From positions 62,001 to 126,000 of the forward strand of contig NZ_FLYE01000034.1 of NCBI RefSeq assembly GCF_900093605.1: a stretch of DNA of 64,000 nucleotides, written 5' to 3'. Position numbers and translations under genes: made by a program. Origin of the DNA: Candidatus Terasakiella magnetica. GTDB taxonomy: Bacteria; Pseudomonadota; Alphaproteobacteria; Rhodospirillales; Terasakiellaceae. The notes beneath the pieces are model-generated. The model did no database searches and was not told the origin of the DNA. It saw only the letters and a list, made by a program, of their open reading frames with translations. Shown here one piece after another: positions 40,382-42,742 of this stretch; the first letter of the stretch is position 1, and every line of letters begins with the position of its first letter.

Positions 40382-42742
40382 ATGGCAAAACAGGTTCATA
40401 CGGTCAGTATTGCATCTTTAGGGAAATGGTTTGCAGCTGTTTCCATCTTATTGGGCAGCGTGCTTGTCATTTCTTCGCTTCTCATGCGTCAAGATAGCCT
40501 GTTGGTAGATAAAACATGGGCAACCTTTAAAGCCACCCAATCAGAAAAAGCCCGCGCGCTAAACAGCCTTTATGAAGAACTTGGTTATGGCGGCATGATC
40601 CATAACTTCAAAAACTACATCCTGCGCCACGATGAAAAACACCTAAGAAAAGCCGAAGAACGCATCGGGGCTGCAAAATCAGCCCTGCGCCACTTGCGTA
40701 TTTTCATGGATCAGAGCGAAGAAATAAAAGCGCTGAATTACGTTGAAGAAACCGTCAATCAATATAGTGCGTCCCTAAAAACCGCCCAAGAAATGATCAT
40801 AGATAAACGCCCGATCTTAGCTATTGATCGCGCTGTTAAAGTCAATGATGGATCAGCATATTATGGCTTTGGTATTTTAGACAGAGCCGTCTCTCAAGAA
40901 GGGCTGGATGAGATGGCTTTAGGCAAGCCTATACTTTTGCAAAAGCTTCTTCGTGCTTTTGGCTATGGCGGCATGATCCATCATTTTAAAAATTATATCC
41001 TGCGCGCAGAAGCCACCCTTTATCCAAAACTCCAAGACTCTGTTAATCAAGCCCGCAACTTAATTAACGACTATCGCAAACTCACGATCAACAAGGCCGA
41101 AACTGAAGCCCTTCGCCATATCGAACATGTGCTTCTGTCTTATGAGGGTAATGCCCCTCATGTTAAAGTCATGACCATGAACCAGGCGACACCTCAAACT
41201 ATTGATCGCCAAGTGAAGATTAATGACGAGCCTGCCCTAGCGGGTTTTCAAACCCTCACACGCGCGATCATTGATGAAAACCATACTGCCAGCCAAAATG
41301 TTGAAGCCGCCGTTGAGCGTATTCACGATCTTGCACGTTACATGATCTGGGGCGGGCTTCTTCTTTTTCCTGCCATGATTATTTTAAGCAACTGGGTTTT
41401 ACGCTCAAAAGTCATTACCCCGATCAGCAATATAACTGGGGTCATGCGCAAACTCTCAAACGACCAACTCGACACCCCGCTTCATCTGGATGAAAACCCC
41501 AATACAGAATTGGGCATGATGGGGCGCACGGTACGGCTTTTTAAAGAACATGCCCTTGAGCGCAAAAAGGCAGAAAAACGCGTTGCAGAAAGAGAGAGAT
41601 GGTTTCGCGCACTCTTGGAATCAGCCCCTGACGCCACCATCATCGTTAATGATAAAGGCATTATGGAGCTAGCAAACAAACAGGCGGAAAACCACTTTGG
41701 ATATAGCAAGCAAGAACTGTTAGGTGAAAATGTGGACATGCTGGTGCCACAGGCCGTGCGTGCAAACCATCACAAACAGCGTGAAAGTTTTAATAATAAA
41801 TCCGGCTTTCGTGAAATGGGTACGAATTTAGTCTTAAGTGGAGAAAGAAAAGACGGCTCAAGTTTCCCCATTGAGGTCAGCCTCAGCCCCATCATGACAG
41901 AAGAGGGCCGTTTTATTGCCGCCGCGATTCGCGATATTACCGAGAAGAAAAAGGCTGAAAAGCGTCTTAAAGATGCCTATGACGTGATCACCAGCTCAAT
42001 TAATTATGCTGCGCGCATTCAACGCGCCACCTTGCCCGATAATGTCGCCATGCAAGACCATCTCAACGATCATTTCATCATCTGGGAACCCAGAGATACG
42101 GTTGGCGGTGATTTCTACTGGAGCAAGGAATGGGGCAGCGGTTTGTTGCTTATGCTGGGCGATTGTACAGGGCACGGCGTTCCCGGTGCCTTTATGACCC
42201 TGCTTTCAACAGGGGCCTTGGAACAAGCCCTGATCAATACCCCTTGTGGCAACCTCACCCTCTTGATCCAAGATATGCATAAATTGCTGCAATCCACCTT
42301 GGGGCAGAATTTGGACCATGTAGGGGATTCTGATGATGGGCTTGAAATGGGGGCCTGCTTTATTTCCCCACAAGACCAAACGCTTTATTACGTAGGCGCG
42401 CATTTCACGCTTTATCGCTTGCAAAACGGTGAATTGATCGAATTTAAAGGCACACGTGAAGCCATGGGCTATCGCAGCATTCCTTATGATCAACATTATA
42501 CCCTGCATGAACTTGCCTTGGAAAAAGACTGCGAATATTACCTGTGCACCGATGGGTTAATTGACCAGATTGGCGAAACCTCAGGGCGTTCCTTTGGGCG
42601 CAAACGTTTAAAAACGATTTTAAGTGAGATCAATGGTCGCCCAATGAATGAGCAAAAAGAGATCATTGAGAAACGCTTTGCACAATTTCAGGGTAACCAG
42701 AAACGTCGCGATGACGTTTCCCTGCTCGGTTTTAAAATTTAA
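40382..42742 (+). CDS. Membrane sensor with duplicated GYGGMIH module, HAMP, PAS and SpoIIE phosphatase
   Basis: 786 residues. A first transmembrane helix (about 16-36) is followed by a periplasmic region of about 285 residues. That region contains two tandem copies of one module: GYGGMIH(N/H)FKNYILR at 68-82 and 194-208, each followed about 65-80 residues later by IDRxVK(V/I)ND and a GFxxLxRA block (148-170, 274-296). A second transmembrane helix (about 320-340), HAMP (341-393), PAS (405-525) and SpoIIE/PP2C (about 560-786) complete it. The output half is highly similar to the preceding gene. The ligand of the repeat is unknown. Confidence 0.85.
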   Translation: MAKQVHTVSIASLGKWFAAVSILLGSVLVISSLLMRQDSLLVDKTWATFKATQSEKARALNSLYEELGYGGMIHNFKNYILRHDEKHLRKAEERIGAAKSALRHLRIFMDQSEEIKALNYVEETVNQYSASLKTAQEMIIDKRPILAIDRAVKVNDGSAYYGFGILDRAVSQEGLDEMALGKPILLQKLLRAFGYGGMIHHFKNYILRAEATLYPKLQDSVNQARNLINDYRKLTINKAETEALRHIEHVLLSYEGNAPHVKVMTMNQATPQTIDRQVKINDEPALAGFQTLTRAIIDENHTASQNVEAAVERIHDLARYMIWGGLLLFPAMIILSNWVLRSKVITPISNITGVMRKLSNDQLDTPLHLDENPNTELGMMGRTVRLFKEHALERKKAEKRVAERERWFRALLESAPDATIIVNDKGIMELANKQAENHFGYSKQELLGENVDMLVPQAVRANHHKQRESFNNKSGFREMGTNLVLSGERKDGSSFPIEVSLSPIMTEEGRFIAAAIRDITEKKKAEKRLKDAYDVITSSINYAARIQRATLPDNVAMQDHLNDHFIIWEPRDTVGGDFYWSKEWGSGLLLMLGDCTGHGVPGAFMTLLSTGALEQALINTPCGNLTLLIQDMHKLLQSTLGQNLDHVGDSDDGLEMGACFISPQDQTLYYVGAHFTLYRLQNGELIEFKGTREAMGYRSIPYDQHYTLHELALEKDCEYYLCTDGLIDQIGETSGRSFGRKRLKTILSEINGRPMNEQKEIIEKRFAQFQGNQKRRDDVSLLGFKI

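Follow-up and report, generated by a model that had tools for sequence, protein, structure and literature searches.

An uncatalogued tandem sensor module, predicted to be a four-helix bundle, ahead of a SiaA-like phosphatase domain in Candidatus Terasakiella magnetica

The window analyzed here, a stretch of 64,000 nucleotides from Candidatus Terasakiella magnetica, carries a gene whose 786-residue product is ordered as a first transmembrane helix (TM1), two copies of a sensor module, a second transmembrane helix (TM2), a weak HAMP match, a PAS domain, and a SpoIIE/PP2C phosphatase domain (Table 1). The original prediction had placed a duplicated sensor module at 40382-42742. The gene was correctly chosen, but this span is the entire gene, and the modules occupy only about 40544-40900 and 40925-41281. 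Both copies sit between two hydrophobic stretches recognized by hydropathy (residues ~16-38 and ~319-346), and they are therefore expected to be extracytoplasmic.

Table 1. Features of the sensor phosphatase gene and of its upstream neighbor, in window coordinates.
Feature	Residues	Position	Strand	Basis
Upstream sibling gene, PAS-PAS-SpoIIE, without membrane sensor	521 aa	38738..40303	+	ORF list, Pfam
Whole gene	786 aa	40382..42742	+	ORF list and Pfam scan
TM1	~16-38	40427..40495	+	Hydropathy; helix 10-52 in AlphaFold model
Sensor module copy 1	55-173	40544..40900	+	Copy alignment, hydropathy, AF2 models
Motif 1 of copy 1, GYGGMIHNFKNYILR	68-82	40583..40627	+	Sequence, family alignment
Motif 2 of copy 1, IDRAVKVND	148-156	40823..40849	+	Sequence, family alignment
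Sensor module copy 2	182-300	40925..41281	+	Copy alignment, AF2 double-module model
Motif 1 of copy 2, GYGGMIHHFKNYILR	194-208	40961..41005	+	Sequence, family alignment
Motif 2 of copy 2, IDRQVKIND	274-282	41201..41227	+	Sequence, family alignment
TM2	~319-346	41336..41419	+	Hydropathy
HAMP linker	340-387	41399..41542	+	Pfam, 21.2 bits, below the cut-off of 25 bits
PAS domain	408-519	41603..41938	+	Pfam scan
SpoIIE/PP2C phosphatase domain, SiaA C-terminal-like	522-786	41945..42739	+	Pfam and NCBIfam

The output domain is a PP2C phosphatase of the SiaA kind. Its motifs DTVGGDF, GDCTGHG, TDGLID, and RRDDVS are all intact, and the SiaA model (NF038263) matches residues 522-786 with 219 bits, against the 700-bit equivalog cut-off that a full-length SiaA has to reach. 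Like SiaA of Pseudomonas aeruginosa, the protein combines a membrane sensor, a HAMP linker, and a PP2C domain, the likeness to the model covering its C-terminal 265 residues. Unlike SiaA, it has a sensor region that the model leaves unmatched, an additional PAS domain, and no place beside siaB and siaC. In P. aeruginosa, SiaA is the phosphatase and SiaB the kinase of SiaC (PMC7647112). Neither siaB nor siaC was found next to the window gene; the SiaB/SiaC pairs of this genome lie on other contigs. They comprise four SiaC and four SiaB homologues, all paired (L055, L056, L057, and L058), and two of the pairs have an adjoining phosphatase. Together with the 17 SpoIIE domains of the same genome, the four pairs constitute a large partner-switching set. 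The window phosphatase domain shares 51% and 47% identity with the two phosphatases of the SiaB/SiaC locus L057, and by analogy its substrates may be found among the four SiaC proteins. The gene directly upstream encodes a soluble product that matches residues 393-786 of the sensor protein (394 residues) with 60% identity, and the two genes form a tandem pair differing by the absence or presence of the membrane sensor. Scans for promoters and terminators yielded no usable signal.

The internal repeat announced by the original prediction is present in full. The words GYGGMIH[N/H]FKNYILR, starting at residues 68 and 194, and IDR[A/Q]VK[V/I]ND, starting at residues 148 and 274, recur in the two copies, their exact forms being GYGGMIHNFKNYILR and GYGGMIHHFKNYILR for the first motif and IDRAVKVNDGSA and IDRQVKINDEPA for the second. 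The copies align ungapped over 115 residues with 34% identity (E 1e-21). A chance repetition was rejected: the local score between the copies is 177, while 2000 shuffles gave a mean of 29, a standard deviation of 5.2, and a maximum of 63. Across the same 345 bases, the DNA of the two copies is only 46% identical, so the duplication must be old.

Searches of the domain libraries returned no name for the module. In the sensor part of the window protein, Pfam and NCBIfam had no match, and over the module in its relatives they had none above cut-off; the Pfam model of the NIT domain (PF08376), too, was silent on it. A sequence search of the PDB with the module gave no match reaching the cut-off, the matches of a PDB profile search were mainly designed helical bundles and were judged to be due to chance, and no paper was found with the motif words. 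The earlier statement that no named domain could be recognized is thus borne out, and a characterized sensor domain with a known ligand, which would have spoken against it, did not emerge from Pfam, NCBIfam, or the PDB.

The module is nevertheless far from unique to this protein. A scan of public genomes identified 17 relatives in named genomes, in whose reading frames the module stands, single or double, ahead of methyl-accepting chemotaxis protein (MCP), histidine kinase, or GGDEF outputs. Sensor kinases, MCPs, and GGDEF proteins were the classes that the original prediction had proposed to search, and the module was found in all three; across the family, the outputs seen are MCP, histidine kinase, GGDEF, and PP2C. 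In a whole-genome search of the phylum, 58 of 299 genomes matched at E 1e-5, some of the weaker matches reaching only the TM2/HAMP end; strong matches to the module, counted by eye, occur in about 30 of the 299. A wider sample of the class contained it in 20 of 289 genomes, and the phylum of a spirochaete-labelled relative (L019) in 8 of 247. The distribution is patchy but wide, with members in a second phylum as well. The window's own genome encodes a second module protein, a single-copy hybrid histidine kinase of 731 residues (L020:1970..4165).

The alignment of the family, although its mean column identity is only about 40%, contains a set of nearly constant positions. Among 92 distinct module copies from the sampled genomes, and in the numbering of window copy 1, these are G68 (99%), Y69 (87%), G71 (96%), H74 (98%), K77 (95%), N78 (92%), R82 (93%), Y128 (91%), D149 (96%), and D156 (91%). 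The position of G71 is not fully invariant, being A or E in the second copy of L009 and L011.

Four contexts of the module were encountered: single, in tandem, inside the NIT domain near its C-terminal end, and behind a 4HB domain. Many NIT matches break off at about profile position 204, exactly where, without a change of frame, the module starts; the terminal part of the NIT profile picks up again beyond the module. With local profiles, the order NIT (1 to ~214), module, NIT tail was obtained for L039, L044, L045, L046, L047, L049, and L050, while L041 and L042 have NIT followed by the module and no recognized NIT tail; the insertion point accordingly falls at profile positions ~204-214. For L039, Pfam confirmed NIT 1-204 and MCPsignal. 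This domain-in-domain insertion is the most unusual part of the finding. It came up unexpectedly during the NIT search and proved to be the most informative result. Like the single-copy proteins and the soluble neighbor of the window gene, it was absent from the original prediction. In the remaining context (L012:5506-7734), a complete 4HB_MCP_1 domain precedes two tandem modules, part of a second bundle, and then HAMP.

A tree of 85 modules, most of whose forks are weakly supported, mostly places the first copy of a protein beside first copies from elsewhere, and likewise the second copy beside second copies. Copy position changes 10 and 11 times on this tree, compared with shuffled means near 21, and the NIT-inserted modules require two changes. 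Since the copies group by position across proteins, the tree fits an old tandem unit that was passed among different output domains, as opposed to a local duplication.

Structure prediction, proposed earlier as a check for a four-helix bundle, yielded such a bundle for the module. The AlphaFold model of a single module (28 alignment rows) is all-helical, with a pLDDT of 93.8 and a pTM of 0.83; its helices span 18-30/35-44, 48-69, 75-103, and 120-140, the first being broken at GYGG. The double module (12-row alignment) was modeled with a pLDDT of 87.8. Each modeled copy consists of helix 1 broken at GYGG, a short HxxKNxxxR helix, two long helices, a cap that carries a short IDRxVK helix, and the final helix. 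In an up-down bundle, helix 1 ends on the same, membrane-distal side as the loop joining helices 3 and 4, so motifs 1 and 2 should meet there, a clustering of the conserved polar residues deduced from the helix order only. In Foldseek searches, most of the top matches of the single module were to sensor bundles of bacteria, namely MCP2201, LytS-N, Adeh_2942, Vc1313, and Tar, with TM-scores of about 0.5-0.6. The double module gave McpS first by E-value, with a low TM-score, and NasR (0.99) and Adeh_2942 by probability. For neither query was there a match at E 1e-3 or better. Four-helix bundles readily match one another in structure comparison.

Taken together, the input region is probably a tandem pair of four-helix-bundle sensors that respond to a small ligand, probably a polar or anionic one, and so regulate the SiaA-like phosphatase, which may act on SiaC-type partners. 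The computed basis of this reading consists of the duplication, the architecture, the family conservation, the predicted fold, the domain swapping, and the phosphatase motifs; from these we infer ligand binding, ligand chemistry, the direction of signaling, and the SiaC targets. In the proposed mechanism, H74, K77, N78, and R82 would lie on the short helix past the GYGG break, and D149 and D156 in the cap joining the third and fourth helices, presumably at the same membrane-distal end. The solute would bind either at this break-and-cap end or at the interface of two copies, both being plausible candidate sites; the interface would be intramolecular in tandem proteins and would form between protomers in single-copy proteins. 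Binding would shift the membrane-connected helices, and the shift, relayed via HAMP and PAS, would alter the activity of the phosphatase, which in turn would dephosphorylate one or more SiaC-type partners encoded elsewhere in the genome. The ligand site or gating helix that the original prediction saw suggested by the conserved Gly, His, and Lys is a conjecture at this stage.

A more far-reaching version of this mechanism is conceivable, if rather speculative. GYGGxIHxFKN would then mark a new plug-in sensor in wide use, dedicated to a single small anion or metabolite and mobile enough to serve as a co-sensor in nitrate-type domains; in the tandem, two alike half-sites would hold the ligand jointly within an intramolecular pseudo-dimer.

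The conservation of the H, K, N, R, and D residues could, on the other hand, be structural instead of ligand-related. The module would then be mainly a spacer or a dimerization or mechanical stalk, in which these residues brace the helix-1 break and the cap by salt bridges and hydrogen bonds. Such a role would suit its position in or beside complete sensor bundles (NIT, 4HB) that are able to sense by themselves, and the positive K77 and R82 could merely pair with the negative D149 and D156. We nonetheless consider it unlikely, since single-copy proteins, including L020:1970..4165, have no other recognized extracytoplasmic domain, and a spacer would hardly be expected to hold G, H, K, N, R, D, and D in more than 90% of its copies at a mean column identity of about 40%.

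The sensor reading leads to the question of whether the module belongs to a named family. In the window protein, CHASE3 (PF05227) is undetected by Pfam, 4HB_MCP_1 (PF12729) scores 9.9 bits against a cut-off of 27, and HBM (PF16591) 12 against 29.8. None of the three is thus reached, and no family member rises above any curated cut-off over the module. Several members do give weak, sub-threshold matches: 4HB_MCP_1 in 7 of 12 (best E 1.3e-4), CHASE3 with a best E of 1.1e-3, and HBM at E 0.01. Profile comparison by hhalign brought the module to CHASE3 at E 1.7e-4, where the reversed control gave 0.62 and shuffled double-module profiles 0.011 at best, and to HBM at E 0.002-0.005; a match to 4HB_MCP_1 (E 2.8e-5) was discounted, as it includes TM1 and its reversed control reaches 1e-3. 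These values could point to a divergent member of a named family (4HB_MCP_1, CHASE3, HBM, or TarH) that escapes the Pfam models, but this appears quite improbable. The CHASE3 alignment opens only at KNYILR, opposite RGYLLTG of CHASE3, is limited to about 70 columns past motif 1, and excludes the signature GYGGMIHxF. Furthermore, by the same procedure, CHASE3 lies equally far from other accepted families (E 2.1e-4 to 4HB_MCP_1 and 4.2e-4 to HBM). With NIT, the comparison gave E 0.16-0.44, similar to reversed and shuffled controls, and membership in this domain, at which Foldseek and adjacency had hinted, was ruled out.

By its distance to CHASE3, which equals that between accepted families, and the absence of similarity to NIT, the module is best described as an uncatalogued family outside every named one. 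Its place in the four-helix-bundle sensor superfamily is well supported, as the AF2 model, the mostly sensor-type Foldseek matches, and the hydropathy profile together predict an extracytoplasmic up-down bundle flanked by TM1 and TM2. The fold class is thus a well-known one, and the family within it is new. With CHASE3, 4HB_MCP_1, and TarH (PF02203), it shares this location between two transmembrane helices and the combination with several kinds of output, and the RGYLLTG of CHASE3 aligns with the NYILR-x-D end of its helix 1. It differs from them in falling below the curated cut-offs, in the GYGG break of helix 1, in the conserved HxxKN...R, and in the cap with two aspartates. The helical bimodular domain (HBM) of McpS likewise has two bundle modules inside one transmembrane pair; those of the window protein are complete, alike in sequence, arranged in tandem, and also found singly in other proteins. 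Adeh_2942 (PDB 4k0d) is another up-down four-helix bundle lacking a Pfam match (PMC3831638), with a TM-score of 0.59 to the single module and a sequence identity of only 12%.

The NIT domain of NasR, a nitrate/nitrite domain, resembles the module in being helical and of similar total size, and differs from it in sequence profile and in the nitrate motif. In NarX- and McpN-type sensors, this motif is GxxR (PMC8199190; for the N-box of McpN, PMC6381276), and in nitrate kinases the mutation of its arginine even to lysine abolished the response (PMC8199190). That the module senses nitrate, nitrite, or another oxyanion in the NarX/McpN/NIT manner, with GxxH replacing GxxR, is very unlikely: the register G-G-M-I-H does resemble the nitrate motif A-G-x-x-R (PMC8199190) and the McpN N-box (PMC6381276), the module is inserted in NIT domains, and NasR is among the Foldseek matches of the double module, but the required arginine is histidine in 98% of the 92 modules, the preceding G71 may be A or E, similarity to the NIT profile is at control level, and certain NIT domains do not themselves bind nitrate (PMC6381276). 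As the register gives GxxH, the nitrate reading is unsupported.

An input domain that is invisible to Pfam and NCBIfam leaves the receptors carrying it annotated without a sensor, and one profile would annotate them all. If the module senses as proposed, identifying its ligand could reveal at one stroke what stimulates a range of chemoreceptors, kinases, cyclic-di-GMP enzymes, and phosphatases. Its insertion in NIT may also be relevant to the failure of some NIT receptors to respond to nitrate. As a hint to the ligand, the neighboring genes of ten relatives were examined, and no common theme was seen among them; those met encode a helicase, a CoA transferase, an aldolase, an MCP, a LuxR regulator, MsrAB, an acetyltransferase, a rhodanese, an ankyrin protein, oxoglutarate dehydrogenase, a phosphorylase, and SecG. 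The hybrid histidine kinase gene of the window's own genome stands just after a gene for a translation GTPase of the LepA kind.
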